Shown here: piece by piece, positions 8,946 to 59,755 of the stretch
How positions within the stretch are numbered: the first letter of the stretch is position 1
How the letters are laid out: every line of letters begins with the position of its first letter
DNA from: Apostichopus japonicus
Taxonomy: Eukaryota; Echinodermata; Holothuroidea; Aspidochirotida; Stichopodidae
DNA length: 64,000 nucleotides
Assembly: GCF_037975245.1 (NCBI RefSeq)
Contig: NC_092565.1
Span: forward strand, 19,633,999 to 19,697,998
Direction: 5' to 3'
Program-made: the position numbers and the translations under genes
The notes under the pieces: model-generated
Database searches by the model: none
What the model was told of the DNA's origin: nothing
Seen by the model: only the letters and a program-made list of their open reading frames with translations

Positions 8946-9260
8946 CGTCCATAGCCTAGTGGTTGGGGTGTCTGCATATAAAGCGGGAGGCCTGTGTTCG
9001 AATCCCAGTGGAGGCTGGAAGTTTTTTCACTGTTCTGGATTTTCTAACTCACTACGATTTCAATCATATATCGATATACAGTATATGTATGTAGCTACTG
9101 AGATTGGTTGAATGCAGTGGAGAATATTTGACAGCTAAATGGGCACATCATGGGACATCTACCTACCAACCATGACATGGACTCAAATTGTGCTTCTTGA
9201 AATAAAGTGTTAACAAGCTGGCCTTCACATACACACACACACATGCACACACGCACACCA
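8946..9260 (+). repeat. tRNA-derived SINE-like element
   Basis: An A box (TAGCCTAGTGG, 8952-8962) and a B box (TGTTCGAATCC, 8995-9005) are spaced as in a tRNA gene. The flanks do not form an acceptor stem. An unrelated tail of about 200 bases follows, ending in AATAAAG and then a (CA)n tract. This is the layout of a tRNA-related SINE, lying in intron 1 of the MFSD10-like gene. The 3' limit is approximate. Confidence 0.6.
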
Positions 9261-15872: not shown

Positions 15873-18750
15873 CAGCGGCCCTTGGCTTAGGACCAAGTCA
15901 TTTTTGCTTCTCGGCCTTAATTAAATTTGACTTTCATCATATGCAGTGTATATTCTTTCAACTCAGAGATACACAGCACACTGTTGGAAGCTCATATTCT
16001 GGGACCCTCATACAGTCTTTTCGGCAGGACTTTCCAAAATAATCCTATCGTCCCTTTCATTGCGACACTTTCCACCCAACCCTGCCCCTCCCCTCCACAA
16101 CACACATACAAATCCATGGGAATTTTGTACTTCTCTGCAAAACATACACCTGTATCTGACCTTATAGAAAGTTTCCAGAATATGATTTGTTCTTGTAGTT
16201 AACACGTACGTAGACCTAGATTTCTTCAAGTTAAGAAACTATACTTTACGTATAATTTATTTTGAACAATCTATAATAAACTGGCAATTGAGCTGGTTAC
16301 AGATTTGCACGAGTTTTTACCGCAAAAGCATCCTCCTACATAGGCCATAATATAGTTTACTTTGTTTTGGGGTAGGTGATGAAGTAGGGGACTCTCCGGC
16401 TGCTGAAGAATCAAGAGATATTTTCATCTCGGAGGAGGAGCTCGGATTTAGGAAATTCAATTTCAGCTTTTACAAAATCCCTCCCGCTACCCAAAGAAAA
16501 GATGATATCAATAAATAAATTTTTAATTAGAAAAAATAACTAACTTTTTTTTATTGATTCTTCTACACTTAGATCTACGGTAAATTCAACGAGGTTTTAT
16601 ATGACATATACACTTAGCTGTACCTTCTTCGGAATCTGGTGTCTGAATTTCCCTTCGTGAGATAGGTGTATCATGCTATCAATGTTTTTTTTATAGATTA
16701 TAATTCCAATAAAGTCATGAGAAATTTCTCATACGGAGTGCGACATTCCACCCAAACTTCCCGGGAGCGTTATAACGTTTTACAAGGTTGTCAGACTTTG
16801 ACCTGTGCTGAACTTTGACATATATACCCTAAAGAAAATAAAATACAATGGAACCAATTTAACTAAGCCTCCTCATTCTTAGCATGAAATGTCATCCAAG
16901 TTTCTCTTCTCTAGAGGTATTTAAATTTACACCTTGTCTGACCTCAAATCGCATATGACCTCCAATAAAAATTAGGCAATAAGAATCTGCTCAATACTGT
17001 GAGGCAATCATATACTACATATTAGATTCATCCAAGTTTCCCTTCTTGAAATATATTGTGTTTTACAAGGTTAGTTCAGTTTCTGACCACTGGTGACTTA
17101 TACTGACCTTTGACATTAGTTATAATAGCATTATGGTTAATTAACTCAAAACGGAGCATCCACATACCGGGGCCTTTTTTTAACATACTAACTGGGGCAG
17201 GGGGATCAATAGGTGGAATGGATATCAACAAATTCTGCATGTGTACATGACATTGGGTCAATTTAGAGAAGGGGCATCTCAATGCCCCCTCCCACCAAAT
17301 GTTGTTCTTGCCACCCCCCCCCCCAATACAACAGCCACCTCTATAGTTCCCATGAAAACAAATTCAGGAACTTCCCATGTCCAAAAATAAATAAGCAGGA
17401 TTACCGTATAACTCGTTGAGTATAATTTACTTGCATCTAACTCGAAAATTCTACTGTTTTGAAGCTATCTGAAGAGGAATGAAAACCGCCAAGATTCGCT
17501 CCTCGACCCCCACCTCTGTGGCTCTGTGGCGGGTCCCTGGACCCCACGCCAGCGTGACTTAGCGCTCCAGGCCATCCTCTTTTGACGTCAGCTTGCATTA
17601 ATCGCATTATGTGCTCATCAAGCTTTGATCTCATTTTGCTGTCCCCTTCGGGCCCACTCGAGGTTCCTGCATTGTAATAATGTGATATTTAATTAGTTCT
17701 TCTCATAGAAGAATAAACTTTAGCAAAGACTTTGTGTAAAGTTTGTTTTGTTAAGACTGTTAAATTAATTGGGATAACAGTGGTAAAGCATAATTTCATG
17801 TTTTTACACAAGTTCTACAAGTACTACTTGACTCAGACTCGACTTTCACTAGACTCGAGTCAAATGCAAGGAGCCCGGGATAGGGGGGGGGGGTGGGGAC
17901 GAACGGGGGTAAATACTACCCAGTATTTGTTTTTAAACATCAAAAGCGCCCCTATAATTATAAACGAACTGACACCTTTCCGTAGTAAAATCACCCCGTT
18001 TCCATTTTTGTAATTAAGGAGTGACCATTTGTTATTTCAAAGTGCCCTGTTGTTGACCAATTAAGTGACATTGTAATCAAGAAGTGCCATGTGGTTGAAA
18101 ATGTAGAACATAGTATAATTAAAAAGGAAAAGGACGCTATTGATTAAAAACGTTCAAATGCTGATAGTACGGAATGCACATATGATGAAAAGTCGGTGCC
18201 CCCCGGGCAAGGGGGTTTAGCCAGTCCCCTGACCCCTCAATCTCGTCTGGCCTGGCCCCTGCATTTGTTTTTATCGGTTTTCTGTTGCAGTGAAAGAAAA
18301 CGACTCGAGAAGAAAAATCACAGCAATCACGGACGGTTGTGCTGCTGCTCATTCCTGTCATAGTTTAATTGTTCCATTCCTGAGCAAATATTTCCAGTCT
18401 AAACATAGGATTTCCCCGTTCTAAAACCGGATCCTTCCAGAATCACATCACTCATGACTGGTTTTCTAGAAAATCGGGAAGTGGTGTTCAACGGGCAGTC
18501 AACCCTTTGTAATAAGTGGTAGAAGCCAACCACATCGAAGTATTATGCAAGGACAAAAGTACACGGTACGATTACTTAGTACGTACATGTGTTTCTTACA
18601 ACGTGAAGATCATATGCTATAGCATTTACACACCCCATACATATGAGGACGTTTATGTACGACTACGCAGTGAAACATTTGGAATGGCAGTAGGCTTTTA
18701 TGTACATTCATCATTTGTGAAGTCACCAACTATCCAAATGCTAGATCGAT

Positions 18751-19026
18751 ATGCCAACTGATACTGTGGCATTATCTCGCATGGCAGAAATATCGTCACC
18801 AAAATTACGAGGTGCAATAGGTGTTCCACCTTCTCTTCCAAGGATTCCAGATCATGGTTTCAGAGTTCGGATAAGTGATATGGACAATCCTGAATCTGAA
18901 CATGCTGCAGAAGAATATGATTACGAAAGTTTGCCCGAAACGTCATCATTTACCACATTTATGATAGCCGGGGCTATTGCAGGAATCATGGAACATTGTG
19001 TCATGTATCCTGTAGATTGCGTCAAG
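18751..19026 (+). CDS. SLC25A37/SLC25A28: mitoferrin exon 1
   Basis: 92 codons. Disordered N-terminus, then TM1 with [10 protein letters not shown] (His82) and the first PVDCVK motif. Donor AAG|gtaagg. A second in-frame Met at residue 11 is an alternative start. Confidence 0.93.
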
Positions 19027-22000
19027 GTAAGGTGTTGCAAGTTGGAGAAAATCGCAATCTACTCCTGAAGTACCTCTCGAAAGTAATTCCCCTTCGCGCA
19101 TTCTAATGAAGTTGAGTTGTTTGCAACGTGTATGTTAGGCTACCACTTAGGCTACAATAGTTCACGACGTTGCAAACGAATGTCACTGTGGTGTGTATAG
19201 TGCAGCCATGATGAACGTAGACGTAAGCATGAAACTTAATGGATCCTTAACAATATTAGCAATATGCAACATGAGGTGTAGGCTGTAAACGTAACCCAGG
19301 TTTAATCCTCATGCGAAATTGCATTTAATTGTTATAAGTAGGTCTGGGCTACCTCTCCATTTCCGTTCTTGCTTTTGTCCTTGGTAAACTAAAACTACTG
19401 TAGGCTGCAGTATAGGTGCATTGCACAAGTTTTTAAGAAGCCACAAGTTGTGTTGCATGGGTACCGTTGTTTTCCGCACACGTTACTTTCCGCTGAAACA
19501 AAACGGTGTTTTCCGCAAACAAATTTGTCAGCGGAAAACAACGTTTTTTTCAGCGGAAAGTAACGTTTTTTTTTGGAGGGACAGAATAACTCACTGAATT
19601 GATTAGGCACATGGAATGATTTAGGAAGGTGGAGAAGATAGGATTTAACTGTAACAGGATAAATCGGCCATGATTTTAGATGTAACTCGTAAGAAAGGTG
19701 GTGCAAAATGCGTGTTCGACTATTAAAACAGCCCTTACTTATACAGCCATTTCCAGCGAAAATCAAAGATACCGCCTTTTACAATTTTTTTTTTAAACTA
19801 TCATTACGCGGACCGCAGTTTTAATACTTTATTAGATTGTCAATCCTTCATAACGCGGGTGTCCCTTTGCCCTTTTATCGGCCGACCACCACATACTTCT
19901 TTAATAATCCCTAATTACACACCCCCCAAGCCTCCTCTGTATTATAAGCAGCTTAACTTTTCTGACATGAACTCAGTCTAACCAACCTTTATCGACGTTC
20001 TTTGATACTTTCTCATGTTATTTTAATCATCCTGCCCGAATTTGGTATCCTAATATATGCGGAAAATATAGTATACAGGAAGGTGAAAAAAAGGTGTTTT
20101 CCGCAGAAGAATTTTTTCATCGGAAAGTAATCAGCGGAAAGTAACGTATGCGGAAAACAACTGAAACCGTGTTGCATAGCCTAATGTTACTGTTATGGAG
20201 GTGTACCTAACGAAAAGTGGAGCCAGGCTATGTCTTACTTAGAGCTAAGCTGATGTTTGGGACTGACAATGGTTGATTTGCTGACAGGATATAGTTACAG
20301 GATCTGATGAACATCTCAAATTTCCTTCTGCCAAACAATGATATTAGTATTTGAATATATAATGCAGTTGCAACTGTGCAATAATAATAGATGAAAGTCC
20401 TTGTTGGTGTTGGTTATCCTATGAAGTTGTGTTTTCATTATTATTTTGTCTTCTTTGATAACTTTAGGGAGTCAACTAGGGAAGATTAACGGCTTAATTG
20501 CAGAATACCCCGCAACACAAAGCTCCACGCACTACTGACGGTGTAGACAGTTTAGCCACAGCAGCATAATACATTGAACTTATTTTTGGCATTTTACATC
20601 GTATTGAACTTTTTAACACTGTTTATAGAAAGAACATATATGTATATGTAATCCATAATGAATAATTAACAGTATACATTTGGAATACATGTTTTGTAAA
20701 AAGGTAGGCAAAATGATGCTGTTTTGGTCTGACAATTTTTGTTGCTTTCTCTTTTATGTTTAAACTAGGCAAATTTATGCAAATCTGGCACTATTTAAAG
20801 TTCTACTATTTCTTTCTCAATGGAATGATGCTGACTAGTCAAGCAAAGTACAAGCCTTGTTCTCCCATCGCTCACATATTGAAATTCCTTTGCCATTTGG
20901 GCCATATAAAGCTATGTCAGTCCCCATAGCAACATCTGCCATGGTAATGATTAATTTTCCTGAGTAGCTGCTCTTGGCATTGCCACCCTTGGTGGGGTAC
21001 TCCAGGGTGACCGGAAGCCCATGACTGAGGGAGGGGTCAAAACTTGTCTGTGTGTGTGGGTGTGTCCAATTTATTGTCAAATTTAGTTAAAAGTTTTAGT
21101 TTTTTGGCTATAACTCCAAGTGGAAACATTGAAATGACATAGAAACTTCACAGTCCTAATAACAATTTGACAAGTACAATAAAAATATGTGGTTGCCATG
21201 GAACCGAGGTCAAAGTTTAAGTGGTTAAAGGCCCTCTTGTTTAAGATGTGATTCTAGTATTGCAGTTCCATAGTATCAAAAGTTGACCAAAATCAATTCA
21301 AAACCCTGCTTTTTAAAAAGACATTAACTTAAGTGATTATTTGCGACAATTACCAAGTTGTTTTGTTGCATACATACTGTATGTTCAACTTAGGTTAAAA
21401 GGCTGAGATGAGGTATTTTTAATTTTTCCCATTGAGTGACAAACTATGTAACGTTTACCTCACAAACAGGTTTCCCTTCTTCCTTTCGTAGCATGCATTC
21501 TCTGAATTGCGATTACTAGATAGAATAGATTTATGCTTAAATGAGCTACAAAATTATCATGTACAGATAAAATTGTATTTCTGAGCCATGCTTTTTGCTG
21601 AAATGTTTCCCCTCTACTGCAGTTAGGAGATGCAAATAACATCATTTATAAATTATTTTTCAATAAAGGACATTTAGATGGTAGAGTGTATTAGTATAGT
21701 ACAGCAATATACACCTTTCTGTTGATTGAAATTTGCTCCGTACCATATGCTCTTGAGTGATGTTCGTCGGTACCAGTAATAATAATACGGTACACATGTA
21801 TGATGTGGGCAGTAAGAGGTTACGTTACTACTCGACTCTTTCGTGCCATGCACAGTAGCACCTGCCCAAGTGATAAATATCCTGTTGGAAATTACGATAT
21901 CTGTTGTTCAGAAAACAGCCTACCTTTTGCGAAAAATACAGATAGTTATACAAGGAACTGACTGTTTGCTTTGTCCTTCAGAAGCCATGTTTGTTTTGGG

Positions 22001-25000
22001 TAGGCTTTATGATCTATTTAAAACTCTATCTTGATAGTGACCGTTAAATGTTTGTTGCCAGCACTCTTGTAATATAAAATACTGTGTATATACTGTACAC
22101 ATACACACAAATTGCTGTACAGGCAGAATTGCAAGAGCAAAGAAATTGTAAAAGAGTAACTAGAGCGCTCTGTGTTTCTGTCAATGATTTAAAAAGTTGA
22201 TCCGTTTCTTGTCCATGTTTGCCAAGTAGTGTCACAGGGAAATATCTTTGTGATTATGACTAATGTTGGTGTCATTTGTTGCATGTTTTATCTAGTGCTG
22301 CAAGTTTTTTGTAACCAATAAATATGATAATGCACCATATGCAATGCTTTAAATTTTGTAAATTATCTCATTGTTGGTGGGGGTGAGTTTAGGTTAACAA
22401 AGTTTTGATGAGTTTGACAGATTTAAGTAACAGACCTGCTTTCAATACCTTGGTGTTAGGTTCCCTGCTGGAAGTAAAGGAACCTATGCAGTAATGTTGG
22501 CATGTGTGTGTGCGTGCGCTTGTGACACTTGACTGGGTCCGCGATCAACAACGGAGTGATGGATATGTGTCGTACTTGCTATGTAGATGCATTATAGTGA
22601 GGTGTGCCCTTTGGATTTTGGCTCTGACCTTATGAATATGAACAAGGTTATAGTCAAACGTAAAAACCTTTACATTGCAATAACTCTAACCTTCAGTCGG
22701 ATTTTAGCCTAATTTAGTGTGCAGTTGGGACCATCTGGGCCCAAAAAAGTCTGGGTCCATTTTTGGGCCAAGTTGGCCCTAATTTTATTTCCACCTCAAA
22801 TGCATTCTGGGAAACATTCTTTGGGTGCAAAATTGTGAGGCCCAATAGTTTTGGGACCATTTAGGGTCCGAATTTTTGGGGATCAATTATTATTGGGTGT
22901 CAAATGTATCTGTGAGCCACTTTGTTTTTGACAAAACACTAATCATGTTGGTATTATGGCTTTACCTGAAAGAGAAACAACGAATCGCTAAGCCTACTGA
23001 AAGAGAAACAATGAATTGCTAATGCTAAGCCTGTTTGCGTTTTGGTTTTATCTGTTTTTAACTGATTTTCTTTCATTTTCATTGTTTCTGTCCTAGACAC
23101 GGATGCAAGCGCTGTCCCCAGCACCAGGAACACCTCATTACAGAAATGTTGGCAATGCGTTGAAGACAATTGTTCGTCAGGAGGGCCTCTCCAGGACTTT
23201 GCGGGGGCTGCCATTGGTAGCCACAGGGGCGGGACCTTCCCATGCCTTGTATTTTGCATGCTATGAGAAATTGAAGACAGTACTCAGCGCCCATCCTGGC
23301 AAAAATCCATTCGCAAATGGTACTTCAGTTGTTATTAGGAATATGAGTACCATAACTGTACTACAATTGTTTATTTTGTCCAGGACCTTGTCTGTTTGTT
23401 TGTTTTTGTTAAATGTTGTTTTTTTTTCCTTTTGCCCTTTTGCTAAGCACATTTTTTCACACTATTTCACATAAATAATCATAAAATATTTATCCCTTGA
23501 CCAAACAATTACAAAAGCAATTGGTTTGAGAGGGTTGTATGAAGGGGTGAGGTGTTTTTAAAATATCTTGGTTAATAACTGCATTAATTAACAGACAGGT
23601 CTTAAAATTCTGAGAATGGTTGGGTACCCTCCAGTGAGAATGAGGAGGGGAACCCTCTCATAAACCACGTTGCTTTGTCCACGCTATTGCACTTTCGATT
23701 TTTCTTAGTTTCATCTGAATACACATCTACTTTAACATTTGTTCAATTTCAGGAAACTAAGCAAAGCCATAATATAAACGTCCTTCAAATGTAAGTAACA
23801 TTGCTGGTCTGTGTAAACTATGTACTCCAGTTTGTGTGCTTTTGGTGGTAAGTTTGGCAAGAATATGCAAGTCAACAGACCAGCATATTCAAGCCTACAC
23901 AAAGTCATCTAACCGACGCAAGATTTCTTCACACCTGGAGTATTAGTAGTAAAGTGCACATTTGTCACAATGTTCATTTTGTTTATCTTTCTCTTTTTCA
24001 ATCTATTACAGCCGTAGCTGGAGGTGTGGCAACGATCGTCCACGATGCTGCAATGAATCCAGTGGATGGTAAAGAACTTCCTCATCATTAACATTTGACC
24101 TGTTGCCTATTTAAACATAAATATTCGCAAAACGATTCACTGATATTTGTGTCACATAGTATTGCTTATGTACTGTTGCTACTAGAGACTTTAAGCAGTC
24201 ACTTCAAAAACAGTTATCTCTCAGCTGTCATTGCATAACAGTCATACTCCATGTATCAGTCTAGACTGAACTGATGGCCTTTTAGAACTGTGCACCCTCA
24301 AATATAGAAAGTCTTACATGTCCAGTACCAAGACTGGGATAATGTTCAGATTTATTGTACATGGCTGTCAGTACTGCTTCACATATATTATTGTAACTTA
24401 AGTTTGCGGTGGTATTCCTTCCTGTCTTAATCTATTTCGAGCATATAAAGAAATTCTTGAATGATGTACATTCTGCTCTATCCATCCATGCAAAAAGTGG
24501 TAACATTTAGAGCTGATGTAATATGAGGGACTTGGTTTCCACGTGAATTCACATTTGGAAAGAAGAGTCCAGGAGTTGACAGGCAAATGTTTAGTTGATT
24601 GTTGTACTAATTTTGTTTATTATTATGATTTTTTTTTCCTGTTCCTGTTTTTGCACTACTTAAAATGATTGTGCACGGCTGCAGGAAAAGTTTTTGAAAT
24701 TTCAATATCTTAACAACATAATAATCGGCATGTAGATATTACTAAATAGGAGGTTTAAGAAGATAATAATAATAATACATAATTTTTATATAGCGCCAAA
24801 CAAACTATGAAATAATTATCGTAGCGCTTAACAAAATAATAACAATTATAACATATATGCTTTGGTGAAGAGATACATTTTGAGTGCTGATTTGAAACTG
24901 TTCACAGTATTGCACATTTTTATATGTTCTGGAAGTGAGTTCCACAGGCACAGTGCACTGGATGCAAACGTTCTCAAGCCGATATATCTCGATAGGAGGT

Positions 25001-25835
25001 TTCATAGAGTATGTTCCAGTGCACAATATTAAACATGTCAATCAACTTGTCAATGAAGATTGGAACCATTGATTTCGAGTGATTTCTCTATAATCGTTTT
25101 TATGCATACTTTCTTTATGTGTAATTTCTGGTGGAAACGTTTGCTAATTTGAAACTTTCTTGATTTTTTTTTCTTTTCATGTCTGTCTTGGATCTATGCT
25201 TGGTTGCCCTTTTGAAAATTTGGTTCGTGTTATTTCCCTTTTTACCTGTGGATCATGATGCTTGCCGCTGGACCGTATTTTGCCTGTGGAATAATACAAA
25301 AAAATGATGGTCATTAAAATTTAAAGTGATAAAGCAAAGACTACAAATGTACCATAGCCCCTTCACAAGTGCCGTGCAGTGTATCAAGCATGTGTACAGG
25401 ACCGAAGGCTTGGGTGCATTCTATCGCAGTTATTCAACACAGTTGACAATGAATATACCATTCCAGTGCATGCATTTTGTGGCCTACGAATTTGGACAGG
25501 AGTTCCTGAATCCTACGCGAAGGTACAACCCCGTCTCGCACGTGGTAGCGGGAGGTCTGGCGGGGGCCGTGGCTGCGGCCCTCACGACCCCGTTGGACGT
25601 GTGTAAGACACTCTTAAATACCCAGGAGGCCTGCATTGTGACGGAGAAGAACGGCATAGCAATAAGTGGAATGAAGAATGCATTCAGGACTGTTTATCAC
25701 AAGCAAGGCTTGAAAGGCTACTTCAAGGGTCTGCAGGCCAGAGTCATATTTCAAATGCCTGCCACAGCGCTTTCATGGTCCGTTTACGAATTTTTCAAGT
25801 ACTCCATTAGCCGGCAGAGAGCAGGAGGTTGGTAA
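18751..25835 (+). CDS. SLC25A37/SLC25A28: mitoferrin, mitochondrial iron importer (4 coding exons, 354 aa)
   Basis: Exons 18751-19026, 23097-23319, 24012-24068 and 25327-25835 join in frame (1,065 bases). An in-frame TAG lies three codons before the ATG. After a polar N-terminus of about 65 residues come three mitochondrial-carrier repeats, each with PX[DE]XX[KR]: PVDCVK at 87-92, PVDVIK at 183-188 and PLDVCK at 274-279. The sequence around residues 178-240 and the end ([17 protein letters not shown]) are diagnostic for mitoferrins. His82, His177 and His235 sit where the three functionally important histidines of yeast Mrs3 are reported. Mitoferrin carries ferrous iron across the inner mitochondrial membrane for heme and Fe-S synthesis. 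Vertebrates have two paralogues; this gene probably represents the single invertebrate form (inference). A candidate AATAAA lies at 26657-26662. Confidence 0.95.
19459..20169. mobile_element. 711-bp MITE with 8-bp TSD and repeated subterminal motifs
   Basis: Flanked by identical TGTTGCAT (19451-19458 and 20170-20177). The terminal regions are inverted copies built from GTTGTTTTCCGCA and TCAGCGGAAAGTAACG, each repeated several times within 110 bases of the ends. No transposase frame. An 8-bp TSD suggests hAT or a similar superfamily. It lies in mitoferrin intron 1. Confidence 0.8.
22455..22960 (+). repeat. degenerate member of the 'ggaatctatgc' repeat family
   Basis: Starts ttccctgctggaagtaaagg aacctatgcag, followed by a TGTG/TGCG tract, as at 28090 and 41910. 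It lies in mitoferrin intron 1. Confidence 0.5.
23097..23319 (+). CDS. SLC25A37/SLC25A28: mitoferrin exon 2
   Basis: Residues 93-166 plus one base. Starts with TRMQ directly after the first signature motif, and contains [20 protein letters not shown] (TM2). Acceptor ctgtcctag, donor G|gtactt. Confidence 0.93.
24012..24068 (+). CDS. SLC25A37/SLC25A28: mitoferrin exon 3 (57-base micro-exon)
   Basis: Completes Ala167 and runs to Asp185, covering TM3 with [16 protein letters not shown] (His177). Too short to show as an open frame by itself; found from the acceptor ctattacag, the donor G|gtaaag and phase agreement. Confidence 0.9.
24764..24990 (+). repeat. interspersed repeat with (ATA)n head and 'tatatagcgcc' core
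   Basis: The string ataatttttatatagcgcc, then tagcgcttaac, then ttctggaagtgagttccaca resembles a dispersed repeat found widely in marine invertebrates. Recognition only, with no second copy in the window. It lies in mitoferrin intron 3. Confidence 0.4.
25327..25835 (+). CDS. SLC25A37/SLC25A28: mitoferrin exon 4 (last coding exon)
   Basis: Residues 186-354 and TAA. TM4-TM6, with [10 protein letters not shown] (His235), the third signature PLDVCK and the C-terminus. The acceptor (aaaatttaaag) lacks a proper pyrimidine tract, but it is the only AG that keeps the conserved VIKQRLQMY frame. Confidence 0.93.
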
Positions 25836-44451: not shown

Positions 44452-44750
44452 TCACCTCTCTGTTTTGGCTTTTGTGAGTATTTCATAAAGCCGATCAGCT
44501 TGCTTCAGAGCTGTGTCGGAGCCCTCGCAGAGTTTCTGCCATTGTTCGGGTATCGATTCGATGCCGTGGAAAGCTCCAGCGATGGCACCTGCCATCGAGG
44601 CAATGGTATCCGTGTCCCCGTCAAGAGAAATTGCATACAAGATAGTTCTTTCCATTGGACTCTGTACATAGAGGCCCTCCACCGGATTCAGACATCTAAG
44701 AAACGAATACAAAGCACTGCCGACTGAGTTGTGGGCTGATATACTATTAC
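44452..44750 (-). CDS. ADPRS: ADPRS exon 6 (last exon)
   Basis: 299 bases with TGA. SFLRCLNPVEGLYVQSPMER, then SLDGDTDTIASMAGAIAGA with the second pair of metal aspartates. Acceptor tcattcgcag. Confidence 0.95.
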
Positions 44751-47700
44751 CTGCGAATGAAGCAATATGATGTGCTATTTACAACAACAATAATAACAAC
44801 AACAGCTGTGAAAAGGTACTTAAGGTGGATGGAGGGTGGGGTGGGGAGGCAGGGTGGTCATGCTGGAACGAGTTACCTCATTACCTCCAAGCGATTTAAA
44901 TTATTTCGTAATTTGTCATCATTATAAAGTAGGAGCACCTTTCCTGCATCTCTCATCCATTCCACAACAGTGCCCCTTCTTACCACATACCTTCTCCTTT
45001 TAACCAGACAAACATATGATTCTAAAGTGATAACAATTTTATCCATGACAACGACCAAGACATTGACCAGGTACTACTCAATCTGTATCTAAGGGAGGCC
45101 AAATATGCAACAAGTCTGATGCAAGACTAGCGTAAGGATATTGACAACAACTGAACAATAAGCTTGCACTAAAAGTCATTCATATTGATGTACAATGTAT
45201 GGAATGAATATCTGGTATCGCAAACCAAAATGCTATGCAAAATGGTCAAGTTGCTATGCAAATGGTCAAGTTGCTATGCAAAATGGGCAAAATGCTTTGC
45301 AAAATGGTCAAGTTGCTATGCAAATGGGCAAAATGCTATGCAAAATGGTCAAGTTGCTATGCAAAATGGGCAAAATGCTATGCAAAATGGTCAAGTTGCT
45401 ATGCAAATGGGCAAAATGCTATGCAAAATGGTCAAGTTGCTATGCAAATGGGCAAAATGCTATGCAAAATGGTCAAGTTGCTATGCAAAATGGTCAAGTT
45501 GCTATGCAAATGGGCAAAATGCTATGCAAAATGGTCAAGTTGCTATGCAAAATGGGCAAGTTGCTATGCAAAATGCTATGCAAAATGGGCAAGTTGCTAT
45601 ACGAGTGTACAGATGTATCGCAATTTTCTATGCAGGAACACTATGAGAGAGAAAAGAGTCACAGCCTTCAAAACTGCTACACAAAATTTGAACAGTAAAG
45701 GTTTCCCTGCAATGTTATAAAAGGTACAACGAGTACGTGCCATAGATTACATTAATCTATTTACCCTTTCCTGAGAGGACGCAAATTTTACAGGTTGTCT
45801 TTAATGGCAATATAAGTAGGATGAATGCAGGGGGAGGGGGGTCCAGGATTTGAGGAAGGAGGGGGATGTGGCCTTCAGGTTGTAGAAGTGTACCCACACA
45901 TGGGAGGTGGGGAAAGTGGGGAAACACTAAAAAATTTAAAATGTGAAATGGTGCATTCTTAGGCTACAAATTAGGACTATATGTCAGGTAGTGCTAATAT
46001 AACTTCTGTCATTTTTTTTATGTGTGGATGTAGGTGGCTGGGTGGGGTGGGGGGCGGAGTGTGTGTGTACATAAACACAATAACATCATAAACACAAACT
46101 TGTTCCATTTTCTCTGCAGCAAAAGTCAATCCACAAATGCTAAATTATGTAAAATAAAAGGAGGTACTTGCCTAACACTGAAGCTACTTCCTCAGCAGGT
46201 GGATCACTTTTCAAAAATTGGCATAAACTTTCAAGCCTTTGGCAATAAACATCATCTCTCTCCACTTTCCTGCAATGAAAGAATGTTGAATAACTTTCAG
46301 CAACATTAACAAGGAAATTGCAAATCCCTCAATCCTCAACGGCAACTAATAATTAACTTTATTTGCATCATTGCTTCACAAAATATGAAAATTTGCAGGA
46401 TTTCCTTACTGAGTATATTTTTGTTTATTTATTTGTAATCTACCTTTGTATTTGTACATATTATTGTGATGTCATTTGTGATCGATGGTTGAGATAATTA
46501 TCTCTCTCTTTGTCACTGCCTTTCCTTTGGGTGGAACTTTATTTGAGAATGCTGCATTTAGTAAACAAAATTATACTAGTGTGAAGTAGGAAAATTTAAT
46601 ATTCTATCACCAAAAGAAACTGATGATCATAGTAAAACAAGTTGCAGAATGATTAATATGCAGCTTGTCCTATTTTGTCTCTCAAACAATTCTAAAGAAC
46701 ATCAGCAAAAATGCCTACTAAGTTAGCTTGGCTTCTGTAACATTTGGGCTACTGTAGCACTACCTAGGTGTGTGCAGGTACTGTAAGCCTATACAGTATC
46801 TCACTGCAACTTTGAGCCGATTCTTAATTTTATGCAATTGCGCAAGTTGAGATAAGAGAGAGCCGGCCAGATGTAAGTTTCACTTGCCCCTGCAACCGGG
46901 CAAATGTTAATGTACAGCCCTGGGAATGAACTACTATTTCACCTCAAGAGCCAGGTCAGTCCCAGGGGACAAATATATCACCGGGCCCCCCTTTTTTTCT
47001 GAAGTCTTCATTTTGCCTTGGGATTATTATGAAGTTGAGAATACATTATTCTGGATCCCATATTGACCTGGGCCCTCATATTGATCTCGGATCCCAGGGC
47101 CTCCAGCCCTCCTGACCCCCCCCCCCCCACCCCTCATGAGGCCTGATGAAGTGTACAAGTTAAGTGATAGATTACCAGCTACCTATTGAATATGGACAGT
47201 AATAGAACAGTTATGTATTTATACTGCTGAAGGTCAAAGCTGAGGAGGGCTGTTTACTCCGTCCTATTTTTGTTACGTATTATTATTCCAATGCAAATAA
47301 ACGTTTGTACGGCTGTTGGGAAGTTATACAACGGAAAATACCTGACACTATACTTCACCGAAGTATCTTTTGTAATCTGGTGAAAAATTATCTCTCATAT
47401 TCACAAGCAGTGGCGGTGCCAAGGGGGGGCTTGGGGGCTTTAGCCCCCCCACTGAAGTAGTCAGCCCCCCCATTAGCCCCCCCAACTGAAATAGGCAACA
47501 ACAAAAAAAACCTCATTGAAACAATATAGCCTACCCAAATTTTGTCAGCCATAACGCAGTGCTACAATGGTCAATGGAAATTTTGATGAATTTTTCACAT
47601 GATAATAGTCAGTGACTCAGTTGTGGTGCAGGAAGCCTTGTTTTGGTGACTGATAAAAACAATTCAGATTCCAGCTTTATCCGCCAGGTGTTGATGAGTT

Positions 47701-50472
47701 GTTTCTCAGGATTGCAAGCATAAAACACTCTACAATGGTGGCGCAATTCACCTTCAAATATTGTGGCCATTGGCCAAACATTCCATCAGCTCTTGTGTTC
47801 TAAATTTTCAATTTTTTTTTTAAAAATGCATATTTTTTGAAAAATTTTTAGGTGACAAAAGCCTCGCTAAATGCCACCATTTTGCAAGTAGGCCTTTCCA
47901 GGATTGGGAAAAATTTACCCCTCCCCCCAGGACGGCGATCACTCAATCTTGTAAGCCACCCAAAAAATTGGCTCAGCCCCCCCTTAGCCTCCCCAACTAA
48001 AAATTCCTGGCGCCGCAACTGTTCACAAGTATGACATTAGGAAGTGGAGCATGGCGTGGACAGTTGGGAGTAAATAAGAACAGCAGTTATGCATAAAAAG
48101 TATAAAAGAATTGCCAAGATGAAGTCATGATTTAAGTTCTGATAATTTTCTAAGGGCTTCGCAAAGAATTACTTTACAAGATTTTCCAGAGACACTTAGA
48201 GTTAAAAAATGATCTTCATGACAGGCCAATTGGTTAAGTCTCGTCTTAGACTTTAGGTAGCATTATTTAAATGGTCATATGGTAATTCGTCCTCTCAAAT
48301 CCCTGTGAAGTGTATCTTGTGAAATAAAACCTTTCAGAATTTGGGACATAATAACCAGCTTGTTTTGGGATTTCAAACCTTAAACAAAACAGCTAACCAA
48401 AACGGACCATACTTCCCAGCATAACAAATATCTTACGAAGACCTACGAGTTTGTGAATCTTACATTACAATGATGCATTCCATGTAGCCATGGAGATGAA
48501 GGAGATATTTGGTTTTTACCTTTTTTTGACTTGACTCATTAGAGTTGTAAGTTTCGCTTCCTTTTCGTTATCATTTGCAGTACCTTCGTCAGACGTCTGA
48601 CATTCCACTTTTTCTCTCATAGTATTCAGAAGGTTCTCAGCAAACTTTTCGCGATTCATCTTATCTGTAGCTGTATGCAGGGCTTGATGAACAGCTAGAG
48701 CCTGCAGGACTGCACCGTTATAACCGTTTCTGTTGGAATGGGTGAGAAGCGCACTGCTCTTTGCATTCTGAAGAGACCAAAAAAAAAAATGGGACGGTGA
48801 AAAGGGAGCTTTGAGACGAAAATGCAATCACGAGAATGTACATTCTGCAAATACGAGAATGTTCATGGTGCAAATAGACTATTAATAGTTTCTGGAATCA
48901 TAGAATGAAAGTAATGATTAAATTTATATACCTGGATGACCCTTTCTACCTCATCTTCACCGCACAGTGCGACTGGTGCAACCCTCATGGCACCCCCGTT
49001 CCCATAGGAACCGCCTCCATCGAACTGATTTCTGGCAGGCGCAAACACATCTGATAGATCACGATCTCCCAGTCTCTTAAGTACCGTTACTACGTTATAG
49101 CCATATCCTCGCGTGGGATGTGCCATATATTCATCAGCAAATCTAACAGAAATAGAAACAAAAAAAACAGGAACATCTCAAAGGTGGTAAAGAAACCACA
49201 TGAAACTCTAAGTACAGAAACACTTAACTATTTATTACAAAATATTGAGCAACCATATTAGGCCACTCAGGATGATTTTACTCTTGATCATGGATTGGGG
49301 GGGGGGGGGTGAAGAGTTCAAAAGAGTGAAGTGATTATTCTGATCATAATACAAGGTTTGTACACATCTGACGATTCTCAATTCCCCGACTTTTCCAGAC
49401 TTTCCAGGACATCAACTGAGATACTCAAGGTGCTTTAGACACACACGTATTATGAATGCAGCTACTTCCCACTTTAGTTTCCATTGTCAAAGACATCCAT
49501 GTGCATTGCAATAAAAATTGTGTAGGCTATTAAAGGCACTGTACTGTGGGTACACTAGCTCTTGAGTCACTCGAATTTGTCAACATCTGTAAATTTGGGC
49601 AAATTATGATCAGTCAACTCTGTTGTGAATTACCTCCTTTTTTTGGGGGCCAGAAAAATACCAACCTTTTCGCTAAATCTTTTGCTTCCAGCTGGCCATT
49701 ATTAGCAATCAATGATTCAGCCACACACCTTGCCATTGCAGTATCATCAGTATATTCCAGTTTTCCTAATGAATGAAGGAAGGAAAATGATTCAAACAGA
49801 ATCAGTTTTAATATCTCCTGTAATTTATTATCAAATAATATATTAAAAAAACAGTTCAAGCCTTTTTCCATCAACACATGAGGCTGGAATGTAATATGAG
49901 ACTTAAATATTATGATAACATACTTTCACTTATTATAGTATTCCACTTATAGTGGTGGTATTAATATTATATTATAACATACTATTTTGCATAATATTCC
50001 ACTGCTAGTTGTGGTAAGTCCTCAATATTACCAGAAGTGCAGAGTATTTGTAATGTTTTGTGAAAAGGTGAAACAACAGGAATTTGTTATTTAACAGTAG
50101 TAGCCTTTCCTCCCACCAACCTCCCCTTCTCACCCCTCCCTTTCTTGAACATAAGTTCTACAGTGCACAGGTATATTACTACAGAATCAGATATATGTTT
50201 GCATTTTTTAATGAATAATCAGCCAGAACACAAGAAGTTCTCAGACCATGACAGTTATATATAATAATCCAGTATGAAATGGTAATCAATAGCAATACTG
50301 AACCTGGACCGTCAATTTCCACGTCAAACTTGTTAACAAAATCTTGAACGTTATCATAACTTCCAGGTCCTCCAACACCTGTCACTTCAAACGGTGCTCC
50401 GATACAGTCTCCTACAACAGCACCAACCAAACATCCTCGAAACCTTGATCTCAAAGTTGGACTCAGAGTCAT
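44452..50472 (-). CDS. ADPRS: ADP-ribosylhydrolase 3, ADPRS/ARH3 (6 coding exons, 374 aa)
   Basis: Exons 50304-50472, 49666-49765, 48932-49142, 48520-48767, 46172-46269 and 44452-44750 join in one frame (1,125 bases with TGA). ARH3 removes ADP-ribose from serine residues and degrades poly(ADP-ribose) in nucleus, cytosol and mitochondria, using two Mg ions. The metal and catalytic residues are kept: Glu29 in GDCIGAPFE, Thr62-Asp63-Asp64 in YTDDTA, and Asp321, Asp323 and Thr324 in GDTDTIA (human E41, T76-D78, D314, D316, T317). RGYGYNVVTVLKRL, GSYGNGGAMRVAP and GYNGAVLQALAVH are also family-typical. The length is close to human ARH3 (363 aa). The start at 50472 follows the family length; an upstream in-frame Met (50511-50513) exists, but the tract before 50495 looks like a splice acceptor. 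The enzyme is probably active. Confidence 0.95.
45231..45600 (+). repeat. minisatellite of about 18 units of 20-21 bp, with octamer motifs
   Basis: Units alternate between ATGCAAAATGGTCAAGTTGCT, ATGCAAATGGGCAAAATGCT and hybrids. ATGCAAAT, the POU octamer, occurs five times. The array lies in ADPRS intron 5. All three forward frames stay open because the unit has no stops; they are not genes. Confidence 0.93.
46172..46269 (-). CDS. ADPRS: ADPRS exon 5 (ends in a GC donor)
   Basis: 98 bases. CQRLESLCQFLKSDPPAEEV. Acceptor cattgcag. The only donor that keeps frame and homology is TTAG|gcaagta, a GC-AG intron. Confidence 0.88.
47408..48021. mobile_element. hAT-type MITE (614 bp) with 8-bp TSD
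   Basis: The ends are CAGTGGCGGTGCCA and TGGCGCCGCAACTG (inverted). The TSD TTCACAAG is perfect at 47400-47407 and 48022-48029. Subterminal poly-G/poly-C blocks (gggggggcttggggg / cccccc) are part of the element. It lies in ADPRS intron 4. Confidence 0.9.
48520..48767 (-). CDS. ADPRS: ADPRS exon 4
   Basis: 248 bases. THSNRNGYNGAVLQALAVHQAL, then a lysine/glutamate-rich variable helical region. Acceptor ggtctcttcag, donor AAAG|gtaaaa. Confidence 0.92.
48932..49142 (-). CDS. ADPRS: ADPRS exon 3
   Basis: 211 bases. FADEYMAHPTRGYGYNVV through the glycine-rich GGGSYGNGGAMRVAP. Acceptor tttctgttag, donor CAG|gtatat. Confidence 0.93.
49666..49765 (-). CDS. ADPRS: ADPRS exon 2 (YTDDTA metal site)
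   Basis: 100 bases, residues 57-90. Contains EYTDDTAMARCVAESL. Acceptor cattcattag. The donor AAAG|gttggt is weak, but the frame and homology require it. Confidence 0.9.
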
Positions 50473-50495
50473 TCTTATTGGCTGATCTTCAAATT
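50304..50495 (-). CDS. ADPRS: ADPRS exon with start codon
   Basis: Coding 50304-50472 (56 codons plus one base). It carries RFRGCLVGAVVGDCIGAPFE with the catalytic Glu29. An acceptor-like sequence (tgtcccctttcaccag) ends at 50496, suggesting 23 bases of 5' UTR here and an unplaced upstream exon. Donor CCAG|gttcag. Confidence 0.85.
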
Positions 50496-50556
50496 CTGGT
50501 GAAAGGGGACACATGATAAATGTTGACTTTTGGAGATATCTTTGACATGTTAACAA

Positions 50557-53500
50557 ATTTCTTCATGCAAAATGAACTTTTCTCAGAGAAATTATACCGT
50601 TACTCTTTGGCCTGTCTTTATGGGCCTCAATCTTAGGCTAGTTCTAAATGTACAACGATGTTTCAATTTGGCATGGTACTATACAGTATTAGGCGTTAGT
50701 TGCAAATATTATATGCTTTGTTAGACCTGGCATAACTCACAGAATTTTAGGCCAAATCTTGAACAAGGTATACCTAAGTCACCTGACTATCAGGTCTAAG
50801 CTTATGTAAGTAACTTTAGTAGCCCATGCTTGATCTATATAGACCTAGACCTATGTAGGCATGTCATTTGATCTTACTTAAGCTACATTGTAGGTTACAG
50901 TATGTTAATCATGCTATTAACTACTATATGCATACTGGGTAGATGGGAAAGCCACTGCCTTGTCCATATTACCCTATTGTTAATTATACCTATGATACTG
51001 GGTAGACAGAAAGTATATGTAATACTAAGAATAGCTAAGCCTACGTAATACTAATTATATTGTACTCTATGTGTAATCTCTACATGCAGGAATGTCATCT
51101 GTCTCTGTGACAGATGAGAAGATGAGAGTAATAAATCAGTAGAGCATGTTTACACTACCACGGTGTGAAGTTGGTTTTTCTTGAGTTGTCTCTACAACAA
51201 CATACATGTAGGCCTAGGCTAAGTTAGGCCAAATCCTAGTCTACATGTAGGCATAGACTAAGTTAGGCCAAACCCTAGTCTAAGTTGTACTGGAATGGTG
51301 TGACTGTGAGCTGGTAGCCTAGTAGTAGTACATCTTTAAGACATGTAAACTGCAAATGAAATTATATATATTTACTTCAGTATTCGTGGTGTCACTGAAA
51401 TTGTGACGTGAATGACAGCTACAACGGCAGGAGAAGCATAAACGTACGGAAGCACATATTTCTGTGATATGAAGCCGATTGGGTGCATGAAAATATAATA
51501 ATAGTAGCACCGATTAACTAACACATCTGTGCAGACTGTACTGTCCCGATATTTTAGAACGAGTCACCCTAGATGACTTAGTTAATGGAAGTAGTTTATG
51601 AGAGGTTGTAGTACCCCAAATTACTCCCAGATATCGACGAGGGACAAATGAGTCAATTAAAAGTGCCATAGCAGTAAATCACCAGTTGGGGGGGGGGGGG
51701 GGGAGTGGGTCCATGGTTACAGCCATGATAAGGGATGCATCCAGGGTATGATGCTGGTTAGAAACGTCTGAAAAATTTACAAGAGGACACAACTATGCAA
51801 TAAGAAATAACTTTAAACTTCAACTCTAAATGGAAGGTGTGAAAAATTGGGAGAGAAAGAGACAGGAAAAAGTAAAGTAAGATGCCTAAATGTGTTAAAA
51901 ATGGTTTTCTGTTTTATTATTCTTCATGATGCTCTTAAGAAATGTCTCACAAATACATTCAAAATATTTGCATGAAAACTTTTATTTGAAAGTCAGTGTA
52001 ACTAAAAACAAATGGGCATTAAAAGGAATACTTTCATACCACAAACAGAACCAATGAATTCTTACAAATCGTGGTTGTAGTGTGTGTAGCTGTACAGCAT
52101 AGGGAATTTGCATAGGGAATGAATACTGATGGCTGTAGTGATGTCACGAATAACAAACAATGGTTTATCCTACACAGAAGGCATCCAACAGGCAATACAA
52201 GGCATCCAATAATGAAGGCACAATTTAGCAATAGAACTAAAGCACTATGTAACTGGTTGCCTCCACCCCCCCTCCCCCCTCCCCTCCATCTCCACCTATA
52301 TAAGCTTACAATTCTTTGTGGAAGAAATGATATGGAATGAAATGGACAGAGAAGCATTTAATATTGAAATTACCATAAAGCACACATGTAAATATTATTA
52401 CTCAGTACTCATAATAGTAACCTACTAATCTGAGAACTTGCACCGATCCAAATCAAAGGATAAATAATGGTCACAGTGAAAACTAAACAACTGCAAAGGT
52501 TAGGAGGAATACTCAGAATAGAGAAAATAAAACTATGATGTTGAAACAAGAAAAGTGTCAGGCTCAATGAACAAGAAATTGTCCAAGTATTAAAAATGGT
52601 TTTATGTATGTACTTGGCCATAGAGGACACTCACTAGCTGGATGGACTAAGGAAAAGTTGCTTACTGTGATAGGACATTTCATTTGAAATCAAGTTTGAG
52701 GCAAGAGCTTTAAATTTTGCTTCTATGCAAAAGAGTTCTTAGATAAGTAAAATTAAAACAACGATTTTCTTTTATAACAATTTTTTTTTTAATTTCCTGA
52801 GATGTGGACATTCTTACAATTGTGTGGGATTATCAAACTATTGGCCAAATTATGGAACTGTTAAGGTGCCATTAAAATGTTAAAATTTTCACATAATTAT
52901 GTTAGCAACTTTGTGCAAAGTATTGAATTGCTCTGAATGCTCTCTTATATTTCACCAAAACTGTAGAAATTCTCACATTGATCACTTCTTGCATTTAAGT
53001 AATAAATGATTTATCATTTTACTATTTTTTTACAAATTTTGATGATTCTTTAGCAAAAATACACAACTTAATAATTTAATCATATCGATCATAAGTTTAC
53101 TAATGTTTCAGTGATTTGTTATCATTAATTCTAATGAGCTTGCATTACCTCATCATTCTTATTATTATTAAATTCCATTTTTAAATGCTTACATATGAAG
53201 TTGTAAAATTTAATCAAAAGAAAAGAAAGAGAGAGAACATTTAAACACTTCTTAGGCACACAGTGAGATAAGCTGCCTCAATGCTATCACATAGGAATTA
53301 CCCCATTCCAATAACAGTACCAATTTACTAATTCATATAACAGCATATCCTTATACACAAAACAATATGGTTTCTTGGATGAAAATTGTAATCTATCTCC
53401 ATTAATATGACGGTATACCACTGAAGAGTTTTTACTGTATAACAGCAAGAATAATCCTTTAAAAATTGCCCAACTTCCAAAAAATAGGACAAAACAACAG

Positions 53501-55467: not shown

Positions 55468-55605
55468 TTACTCTGCCAACTCCTTATCGAATATGTATTC
55501 ACCAAGTCCATCACCGGCTCTTGACAGTTGCTGCTTAAGGTCTCCAAGCCGTTTAATATTTTCCACATAAGGAGTAAGAAATTCTTCCTCGATCCAGTCC
55601 ATTGT
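55468..55605 (-). CDS. ferritin exon 4
   Basis: 45 codons and TAA: helices D and E, with Asp130, Glu133, Tyr140 (Q141 position) and GLGEYIFDKEL. Acceptor cttgcag. The C-terminus is about ten residues shorter than vertebrate H-chain. Confidence 0.93.
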   Translation of the reverse strand, partial: TMDWIEEEFLTPYVENIKRLGDLKQQLSRAGDGLGEYIFDKELAE

Positions 55606-58600
55606 CTGCAAGAGAAGATGTATAAGGATTTGTTAAGACCCCATAAAACTTTGCGACAGATTGGCTGCACAATGTTGATTCAATGTGGTTGAAGCCTGTG
55701 CACTAAAGCATAATATTTGCATGTGGTCATTGTTTTTTACCAAACCTATCGCTTACTGAAGAAATCAACTGATCAAACTTAAGACAACTTGATCATAGAT
55801 CTTGTTTACCATATGGAAGTTAACAAGCAAGTACTTGATTCTGTCCGTCCTCAACAAGTCGTAGCCCAGATGGGGATTTTCATATCGGCATTACTCACAT
55901 GTAGAAATGAAAATTGAAAGCTTCAAAAAATTACAAAATTGGTTCATTATTTGAAATGAAACTTAGAGATTGAATTTGATTAACTACATTGATATGGGAT
56001 AAAGGCACTGAACAGAATACAAATTTGGATCAAAATCCCAATGAAAAGGCTGTTTTGCAGTCTCATTGGCACAGACGTAGCATGTTAGACTTCAAAATCC
56101 CTTCAATAATGAAATAACAAGTAACCAACAGAAGAAGAATGAGGGAAAAAATTAAAATTGTGAAAGGAATTACATGCTTATCTTCATGAGTCTCGGCAAG
56201 ATTGTGGAATTTCAAAAACGTTTGGTTACTATTTATCTCGGCTTCCATCGCTGCAGCTAATCCCTCACTTCCTTTACCCCAGTTCGATCTAGAACTAGCC
56301 TGGAAAGACAGCAAAAAGATAGGATAAAATGATTAGCCAGTGGATTATGAGAGCATAAGGTGATGTGTCAAACACTACAGGAGGGGGGGGGGAGGGTCAT
56401 GGGGCTCATCCTATCTGCAGTTGGGCTACAAAAGACAATCTTTTGTGCTCTGCCTTTCACACAGTAGGCACTGCTGGTCAATAAAGATGAGCTAAATTCC
56501 ATCAAAAATGTCAAACATACAGTTATCCAAAATAAACCAGCATAATAATACACTCAAAACAATGGCATTTTTTCATGCAGCATTCAGAAAATGCAAATTA
56601 TACAAATTTACCATGCATGCAGTAACATTCCCTGAAAATATCTTAAATTACATCTTGGGTTATAAGTGTTGTAAGGTGTGTGATTGCATATTGCAGCCTC
56701 AACCGGACTGTTTTCAGTTTGTGTAACCCCAACAATCACCTACTCAAAGTCTCCTTCTGATGATAACAGACTTCATTAAGAACAATAAATGAACCATAAA
56801 AAGAAACATTGCTTGATGGTACTGAACTTTAAGGGAACATTGTCCATCTCAACCTGCAGAAGTACAACCCTATGAAAACAAAGGTTCCATTACTAAGTTA
56901 AAGGCATTGAAGACTCGCCCCAAACCGTGTGCGGCCATCTGAAAAAGTTAACTTTCCGTTGCTTGCAAGTAACGTTTTGTTCGTGTCGCTAGAAAATGCA
57001 GACAGTGATGAAACGTGATACCTTGTTATCTTTAACTTGACCTGAGATGTCTATCGCTGTTTGTTTGTACACTGTGCTATGGGTATTGACCGCAGCTGTA
57101 TTTACTGACTGTACACTAGTGTCTAATTACCGACGTTAGCAAGATGTGTGTCTATTTTCTGGGATCGATGGTGGTGTCTAACACTTCTGTTACACCTCAT
57201 TTGAAACTAGGTCAGATAACTGGCTTTAGATGTTTCTTTTTGCGCGAGTCTTCACACCCTTTCAGAACACGCCATAACATTCATACGGGTGTAATTAGCT
57301 TTAGAAACATTGTGGTCATTTTACTATCTTTTTTGGGAGGGTTGGGGGGGGGGAAGGGTTTCACTAAGTCTTCACTTTAATGACTCTTGGAATTTATTTG
57401 TTCTTCACCTGAACATCCTGGAAAGTCACACGTCCTCCCCTCTTGTTCTGCTTCTGCATCAATTTGTCTGCATTTTCTTTCTTCTTTTCTGACATGTCCT
57501 TCAGAAACTTATGAAAACCTGAGAGTGCAACATCATCCCTGTCATAATGTGTCGACTGCATAGGAAGTTGGAAAATAATGATGGAATGATCATATCAAAT
57601 CTAACATAAAGTCATACAATCTGAAAAAAATGTAATAATGTTATTGGGTACAAATCTCTTATTAACATTAATTCATTAATGTAAATAAGGGATATAAATT
57701 GTGATTCTCAAATTATTTTGTGTATGACCAAATTTACAGCAACAGAGTTGTTGTATATATATTCAACTTTGTTGCTGTAAATTTCACCAGATCAGCAATA
57801 AAGGGTCACACTAATTAGCGTCAACAGGCCGATTTCACGACAACTCACGACAACTCAAGACAACAAGTTTAAAATACCATCAAATACAATTGATGTTATC
57901 AGAGTATATCTGCAAACACGTTTAAACTGACTGGAACCAGCGTGCATACATATTTTTCACGGGAAAAAATGTTTTTGTCGTAAAAATCGCCAACTTTTTC
58001 CTAACGTTGAATTGGACGACGTGATGCTATTGCGCTTGCGCAATGACATTGGACCGAACCATTACACTACAGGTAAGTGCAATTTTTCAATCGAGAATGG
58101 TGCCCACACACTGGTGTCAATGTATGATTGACTTGGCAAAAGGTGACCAGCGCCATCTAATTTTACTTAACTACTTTTTATGAGAATCATTCGTTACTAT
58201 ACTACTACTAGTGTCAGTGAGTACTACTACTTTTTGTGAATGGTCTTCTATTCATTTTTACAGAGCCATTCCTATGTTTAACCAGATCGTGTTATATTCA
58301 GGGTAAGCTTTAATTCATGATTGTGTGATAGGATTTAATTGCAATAAGAAATATTCATTATTTTAAAAACATTCAATGATTTGACAGAGAGAATAATAAA
58401 ACCAGGCAAAATGATAGTTAGCAAGACTCTGTAAAGTTGATAATCATGCACATATGTAAATTACAATGGAAAAACAATAAGCAATATTCATTATTTTTAA
58501 AACATTAAATAATTTGATTTGGAGTTCATTCACCATACTTTGGTGCTTTATTACTACGTCAACCCACCTTACCGACACTGTACACAAGGCAGTTCCCAAA

Positions 58601-59755
58601 CCTAGCACAAACCCACCGATATTATAATGGTTCGGTCCGATGTCATTGCGCAAGCGCAATAGCATCACGTCGTCCAATTCAACGTTAGGAAAAAGTCGGC
58701 GATTTTTACAACAAAAACATTTTTTCCCGTGAAAAATATGTATGCACGCTGGTTCCAGTCAGTTTTAAACGTGTTTGCAGATATACTCTGATAACATCAA
58801 TTGTATTTGATGGTATTTTAAACTTGTTGTCTTGAGTTGTCTTGAGTTGTCGTGAAATCGGCCTGTTGACGCTAATTAGTGTGACCGACAATGAATGGAA
58901 TAATGCTACCGGTGTAAGGGGGACCCTCTCAGTGGAAGGCATTGCATCTCATGTAATTTGGCGATGTTTATTAGATGGTTTCTCCAAGTTATATCCTTCT
59001 TGAAACTATAACCAGTATTATAACTATTATTAATAGGCCGTGGCTATTCTTACGACTAGTCGTAACAATTATTTATAAACTATTCTTACGACAAAGGCGA
59101 ATTCAAGCACAGTTAAGTAAATAAAGCAACTGCGCATGTAGTAGGGGTAACCCTAACCCTAACTTTAACCCTAAACCCCAATCCTAACCCTAACCGGAAA
59201 TTATGGTTACTCCTGGTTGTAAAAAATAGTACTCCTGTCATAAAAATAGCAACTGCGCATGCGTAATCGAAAATTATTCTTACGAACAGTCGTAAGAATA
59301 GCCACTTTGTTATTAATAAAATATGTGGTTCCTGCATGTTTGTGCACTGAATGTTTGACTAGGCCTTTATGACTAAATACTTTCACTTTGTAATGCTGAC
59401 ACAATAAATCATCCAACGTGATTGCAAGCTCACGATAAATCTGATAGATTAGGTACAGCTAAATTATTTGACTGAGGTCGACAGTGTTCTAAACTTCTAC
59501 CTGTACATATAGCCTAGGGGCCTAGCTAGACCTGCATGATAAAGTGATAGTGATACTAACAGTAACACAAAAGCCTAGGCTTCAGTACAATCAAGCTAAG
59601 AATTCGCCATTGCCGATTAGCCTATGCAATACAGATCGTTAATTTACCATCGCTAAGTAGCCATACGACGACGTGAGCTCCAATTGTATCAGGGTATTGA
59701 TAAATGTCTCTGTCTCTGCGTGAAAATTCTGCTTGACGTTCGAATTCGTTGCCAT
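55468..59755 (-). CDS. ferritin subunit with degenerate ferroxidase centre (4 exons, 172 aa)
   Basis: Exons 59648-59755, 57409-57555, 56174-56299 and 55468-55605, all phase 0, at the same three intron positions as vertebrate ferritins. An in-frame TGA lies four codons before the ATG. No signal peptide, so a cytosolic cage subunit for iron storage. Family marks: DRDDVAL (41-47), KLMQKQNKRGG, KRLGD, and GLGEYIFDKEL near the end. Of the human H-chain ferroxidase ligands, the equivalents of E27 (Glu26), Y34 (Tyr33) and E107 (Glu106) are kept, but E61, E62, H65 and Q141 are Lys60, Lys61, Asn64 and Tyr140. The three-fold channel acids (Asp130, Glu133) remain. It therefore looks like an L-type-like or otherwise non-catalytic subunit. 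I saw no canonical iron-responsive element in about 350 bases upstream, but the 5' UTR may be spliced. Confidence 0.93.
56174..56299 (-). CDS. ferritin exon 3
   Basis: 42 codons, residues 86-127: helix C, with Glu106 and NQTFLKFHNLAETH. Acceptor ctttccag, donor CAT|gtaatt. Confidence 0.92.
56902..57260. mobile_element. piggyBac-like MITE, copy 1 (359 bp)
   Basis: Inverted ends AGGCATTGAAGACTCGC and GCGAGTCTTCACACCCT. TTAA on the left (56898-56901) and TTCA on the right, as if one side had mutated. It lies in ferritin intron 2. Same orientation and most of the sequence shared with 62343-62699. Confidence 0.7.
57409..57555 (-). CDS. ferritin exon 2
   Basis: 49 codons, residues 37-85: helix B, with the lysine-rich SEKKKENADK that replaces the H-chain E61/E62/H65 site. 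Acceptor cctatgcag, donor CAG|gtgaag. Confidence 0.93.
57730..57784. repeat. 21-bp-arm hairpin
   Basis: Arms 57730-57750 and 57764-57784 pair at 20 of 21 positions around a 13-base AT loop. It stands 20 bases left of the foldback element, in ferritin intron 1. Confidence 0.8.
57804..58886. mobile_element. foldback element with about 261-bp near-perfect inverted arms
   Basis: The left arm (57804-58064) and right arm (58625-58886) are reverse complements with only a handful of differences and one single-base indel. They start GGTCACACTAATTAGCG. The 560-base core includes two diverged direct copies of an AT-rich 50-mer (58340-58390, 58476-58525). No protein, and no clean TSD seen. It lies in ferritin intron 1. 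Confidence 0.88.
59036..59309. mobile_element. 274-bp MITE with telomere-like core and 9-bp TSD
   Basis: TSD TTATTAATA is exact at 59027-59035 and 59310-59318. The ends share GTGGCTATTCTTACGA in inverted orientation, with an extra TCTTACGA/TCGTAAGA palindrome at each end. The core (about 59147-59200) carries five or six CCCTAA-type units. It lies in ferritin intron 1. Confidence 0.8.
59648..59755 (-). CDS. ferritin exon 1
   Basis: 36 codons: helix A with Glu26, Tyr31 and Tyr33. The intron follows Met36 at the conserved LSM/LAM position. Donor ATG|gtaaat. Confidence 0.92.

Follow-up and report, generated by a model that had tools for sequence, protein, structure and literature searches.

Introduction

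Structural work on the ferritin of the sea cucumber Apostichopus japonicus has dealt with one protein, AjFER, crystallised as PDB 7vhr (PMC8886333), and two expression papers on the species name only 'ferritin' in the parts of their texts considered here (PMC12472340, PMC10419132). A literature search over parts of main texts found no description of a second A. japonicus ferritin, which is a weak form of absence. Among invertebrates at large, the main text of a study that collected 533 ferritins defines an 'atypical' class by the lack of a signal peptide and by <49% identity to human H or >5 replacements in functional domains; the class makes up 18% of non-insect invertebrate ferritin sequences, nearly all of them without an IRE, and atypical ferritins without iron-binding residues are reported there from many invertebrates (PMC8395497). 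One of these, HdF2 of the sponge Halisarca dujardini, carries E27Q, E61S, E62K, H65S and E134A (PMC8395497). In insects, the light-chain homologue Fer2LCH is described as part of secreted ferritin, in which a disulphide joins it to HCH (PMC4783870). The L chain has a Lys62-Glu107 salt bridge in place of an iron site (PMC11396501), and human H carrying E62K and H65G is described as devoid of ferroxidase activity (PMC4029007, PMC6929972), the acknowledgement of the first of these papers printing E62F where its methods print E62K.

Here we compare these systems with a ferritin gene found in a 64-kb stretch of A. japonicus contig NC_092565.1, referred to below as the window. Our main reading, to which we give a probability of about 0.6, is that it encodes a divergent second cytosolic-type ferritin, likeliest a minor, catalytically silent subunit able to join AjFER cages.

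Gene structure and fold

The window ferritin gene comprises four exons on the minus strand (59755-55468) that encode 172 amino acids with no internal stop, and all three of its introns (about 0.57, 1.1 and 2.1 kb) are GT..AG and in phase 0. The features below derive, for the coding exons, from the exon join and the alignment, with ligand and channel residues at their human H positions.

59648..59755, minus strand: coding exon 1, 108 nt, start codon at 59755, residues 1-36, E27 and Y34 kept
57556..59647, minus strand: intron 1, with a large inverted repeat at 57804-58074 / 58615-58886 that may be a mobile element
57409..57555, minus strand: coding exon 2, 147 nt, residues 37-85, with E61K, E62K, R63K and H65N and with D57, E60, E64 and D67
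56174..56299, minus strand: coding exon 3, 126 nt, residues 86-127, E107 and H118 kept
55468..55605, minus strand: coding exon 4 with the stop codon, 138 nt, residues 128-172, D131 and E134 kept, with E140P and Q141Y

In the intron 1 repeat, two pairs of arms are complementary at 95% and 99% and the inner arms are separated by 540 nt; it is perhaps a foldback or MITE-like insertion. The preliminary description had assigned vertebrate intron positions to the gene; exons 2 and 3 agree in length with the human FTH1 exons of 147 and 126 nt.

The protein matches the ferritin family (PF00210) over residues 19-156 with an E-value of 2e-24 and 86.6 bits, against a gathering cut-off of 24.5. A search of PDB sequences returned 243 distinct sequences at E<=0.001, the best solved relative being 6lpe (E 3.3e-49), and among the best 60 of the 243 the closest match has 82 identities over 165 positions. 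The fold is clear from the sequence, and the protein should fold as a ferritin. Its N-terminus is collinear with that of AjFER, and no leader is visible on direct reading by eye. In the viral and prokaryote collections, 10 and 47 stretches respectively matched by peptide pattern, none of which was confirmed as a ferritin relative by tblastn.

A catalytic-type ferritin gene in the same assembly

An H-like second gene, which the preliminary description had proposed to look for in the same genome, is present on contig C7 of the assembly (671,581,487 bases in 35 contigs). Its 173-residue product is identical at 173 of 173 positions to PDB 7vhr, and all seven ferroxidase ligands are present in the alignment. 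Whole-genome searches place at least two ferritin loci in the assembly (at least three exon matches in the PF00210 search and at least six in the search with the window protein). This count is a lower bound, since ferritins that are secreted or very divergent could have escaped both searches.

The AjFER gene has coding exons of 105, 147 and 270 nt. Its first two intron positions are common to both genes, and the window gene has a further intron after residue 127, in a region where the C7 gene has none; the window gene therefore did not arise as a retrocopy, and it is also no recent, unmodified duplicate of the C7 gene as it now stands. GC content at third codon positions is 0.47 in the window gene versus 0.73 in the AjFER gene, a difference that we read as pointing to lower expression of the former.

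Ligand and channel residues

The alignment set the protein beside human H, human L, AjFER and a further five chains, the human sequences being exact matches of PDB entries 4oyn (H) and 5lg8 (L). This computed alignment bears out the earlier placement, made by eye, of Lys60, Lys61, Asn64 and Tyr140 at human H positions E61, E62, H65 and Q141. The catalytic H-type set comprises E27, Y34, E61, E62, H65, E107 and Q141, of which the window protein has three; the previously stated loss of ferroxidase ligands thus holds for four of the seven (K61, K62, N65, Y141), and the retention of E27, Y34 and E107, which had gone unmentioned, has to be added to it. The three-fold channel acids had been described as kept, and H118, D131 and E134 are indeed all present, as are the cage-loop residues. 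Identity amounts to 79/171 with AjFER, 76/172 (44%) with human H and 67/170 with human L.

The loss of the ligands is genuine and informative about function, and it sits within a broader divergence. Six catalytic ferritins have 74 invariant columns in common, of which 27 are changed in the protein, and loss at four of seven ligands shows no enrichment against this general loss of conserved sites (hypergeometric P 0.21); with a seventh, possibly engineered, sequence added, 24 of 66 invariant columns are changed and P is again 0.21. The loss is in line with general relaxation and by itself is no sign of selection for silence. Among the changes at otherwise invariant sites are Y29T and E140P, and such changes could hinder folding or assembly.

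An artefact of the gene model, with a missed exon that would bring the ligands back or with four exons that stem from different genes, appears extremely unlikely. The introns leave room for such an exon at about 0.57, 1.1 and 2.1 kb, but tblastn of both ferritins against the 64-kb window recovered only the four exons at E under 0.001, the next best match having an E-value of 0.50, and no alternative ferritin exon. The genome searches likewise gave only the window and C7 loci, as lower bounds.

Relation to vertebrate L chains and other light chains

The gene had been characterised as encoding an L-like subunit. As a statement about residues this stands, since the ferroxidase centre is lost and the alignment shows the K62/E107 pair; as a statement about descent from a common L chain it is not supported, since no supported branch of the trees holds the protein. 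Like human FTL (PDB 5lg8), the window protein combines K62 with E107, has lost H65 and Q141, keeps D131, E134 and H118 and has acids at positions 60 and 64. Unlike FTL, it keeps E27 (Tyr in L) and has Lys at 61 (Glu in L), its identity to FTL is only 67/170, and kinship is without support. The acidic nucleation cluster of the L chain comprises positions 57, 60, 61, 64 and 67. Asp56, Glu59 and Glu63 fall at 57, 60 and 64 and Lys60 at 61, as the preliminary description had it, and Asp66 (position 67) is a further acid at this site; the protein thus reads D57, E60, K61, E64, D67, and the cluster is broken at 61, where L has Glu.

True orthology between the gene and the vertebrate L chain, which would make the H/L split older than vertebrates, seems to us highly improbable. 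Nine of the 74 columns invariant in the six catalytic ferritins are lost in both the window protein and human L, four of them to the same letter (Q23L, E62K, L82F, L104M), but an overlap of this size is not significant (P 0.14). A joint clade with human L is not rejected by the AU test (p-AU 0.42 with nine rows, 0.63 with eight), but neither is a clade with AjFER and 8iqv (p-AU 0.50), both branches are long and can attract each other, and the window protein enters no supported branch in either tree. The retained E27 and a lower identity to human L than to human H also argue against orthology. Trees were computed with nine and with eight rows, and neither version places the gene. The second omits 8iqv, which looks engineered to judge from its loop. 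A grouping with AjFER alone has an AU p of 0.02 with nine rows and of 0.22 with 8iqv omitted; set beside the 0.50 obtained for AjFER with 8iqv, these values lead us to draw nothing on this grouping.

Insect Fer2LCH is a light-chain-type subunit outside vertebrates, from which the window protein is set apart by having no visible leader where the insect subunit is secreted (PMC4783870).

Maintenance of the reading frame

When the C7 coding sequence was randomised to the same protein identity in a neutral simulation, none of 1000 runs remained stop-free (mean 6.76 stops). In 171 codons, the two genes differ at 71 first, 55 second and 118 third positions, giving pN 0.38 and pS 0.86; because pS is saturated, comparing the gene with AjFER yields no more than an approximate picture. 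The reading frame looks maintained. The preliminary description had allowed for an unexpressed pseudogene, and we consider such a locus, or a decaying gene, improbable: the lower third-position GC relative to the H gene, the 27 of 74 conserved sites lost and the large inverted repeat within intron 1 would suit it, but every splice site and the entire frame are intact, where all 1000 neutral runs acquired a stop, and differences are greatest at third codon positions.

An IRE-like hairpin at the AjFER gene

An IRE-like hairpin (loop at 4937-4942 of stretch L004, contig C7) precedes the start codon of the AjFER gene by about 90 nt. It has a 5-bp upper stem, a CAGTGA loop and a bulged C, and the gene also has an upstream TATA-like box. 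The hairpin is the sole match in 25,200 sense bases, versus 0.07 expected from 30 base shuffles. For the window gene, the same motif search covered 29,000 sense bases, across the gene and upstream of it, and found none; the expectation there is also 0.07. Rfam reported an IRE in no searched stretch near either ferritin gene (E<=10 for the H-gene stretch), so the AjFER hairpin is a motif call and not a family match. The 5' UTR of AjFER is given as 513 nt (PMC8886333), long enough to take in the hairpin unless it is spliced, though not near the cap.

Other features of the window

Exons of a mitochondrial carrier (PF00153) lie at 18745-25832 on the plus strand, about 30 kb from the ferritin gene. 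The sequence of this carrier resembles mitoferrin, the mitochondrial iron importer, and a mitoferrin-like carrier together with the ferritin would possibly make two iron genes in one window. Between the two, three open stretches at 44458-49925 on the minus strand match ADP-ribosylglycohydrolase (PF03747) and look ARH3-like, and a further open stretch at 50185-50562, with no Pfam match, looks like the start of that gene. A short-unit tandem repeat at 45173-45717, with no stop in any of the three forward frames (CYAKWSS, MQNGQVA and KMVKLLCK units), is a satellite-like array. The window also contains a tRNA-like gene at 8944-9017 on the plus strand (called tRNA-Tyr, anticodon ATA, 40.5 bits with the Rfam tRNA model) and, at 559-819 on the minus strand, a stretch that matches the major facilitator superfamily (PF07690) weakly, its 21 bits lying below the cut-off of 33.4.

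Proposed function

What we say here of activity, salt bridge and co-assembly, as of expression above, we infer from the sequence. With E62, the shared ligand, and its neighbour E61 replaced by Lys, H65 by Asn and Q141 by Tyr, both iron sites should be lost, and the protein is very probably catalytically silent; the retained E27, Y34 and E107 make residual metal binding possible. The E62K change together with the lost H65 resembles the engineered dead human H chain. Both letters of the L-type Lys62 and Glu107 pair are present in the alignment, and within the helix bundle K62 would most likely pair with E107, which has been retained, a stabilising salt bridge there replacing the di-iron site. 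The subunit still has its three-fold channel acids and could share cages with catalytic AjFER subunits; such mixed cages would have fewer ferroxidase sites each. The regulation of the window gene would also be unlike the IRE-type regulation that the hairpin suggests for AjFER.

The preliminary description had regarded a ferroxidase-poor ferritin outside vertebrates as unusual, a view overtaken by the atypical invertebrate ferritins already published (PMC8395497). On its sequence, the window protein appears to fit that class as the main text defines it: at 44% its identity to human H lies below 49%, and the gene also shows the usual, though not defining, absence of an IRE-like hairpin, in the 29,000 sense bases searched. 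The data set of that study may already hold the gene, since the paper cites an A. japonicus transcriptome paper (PMC8395497). The parallels with HdF2, as described there, include the <49% identity to human H, the loss of E61 and E62 with E62K, the replacement of H65 by a polar residue, the failure to find an IRE and a conservative ferritin in the same genome. The differences are E27Q and E134A in HdF2, at positions where the window protein has retained Glu, and Q141Y and E140P in the window protein.

As has been proposed for HdF2, this atypical ferritin could instead have taken on a new role outside iron storage, for example in heme or metal binding, in signalling or in morphogenesis, and form its own cages or none. 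Novel functions have been proposed for the sponge protein with its similar ligand losses (PMC8395497), and the window protein is itself divergent, with 79/171 identities to AjFER and a long branch. The retained three-fold channel and cage-loop residues speak against such a role, positive evidence for any new function is absent, and we regard it as rather unlikely, though the most serious competitor to a silent subunit of AjFER cages.

Implications

If the gene encodes a second subunit that is apparently silent and has the K62/E107 pair of L chains, the cages of sea cucumbers may contain both subunits, and A. japonicus would then be a tractable animal for testing the role of the widespread, unexplained atypical invertebrate ferritins. 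We tentatively extend this reading to an independent origin, a possibility well short of even odds: an echinoderm light-chain-type cytosolic ferritin would have evolved on its own, its K62-E107 silent subunit co-assembling with an IRE-regulated catalytic one and tuning cage activity. If this is true, animals would have come to the H/L division of labour on more than one occasion, each time through the same switch of residues.
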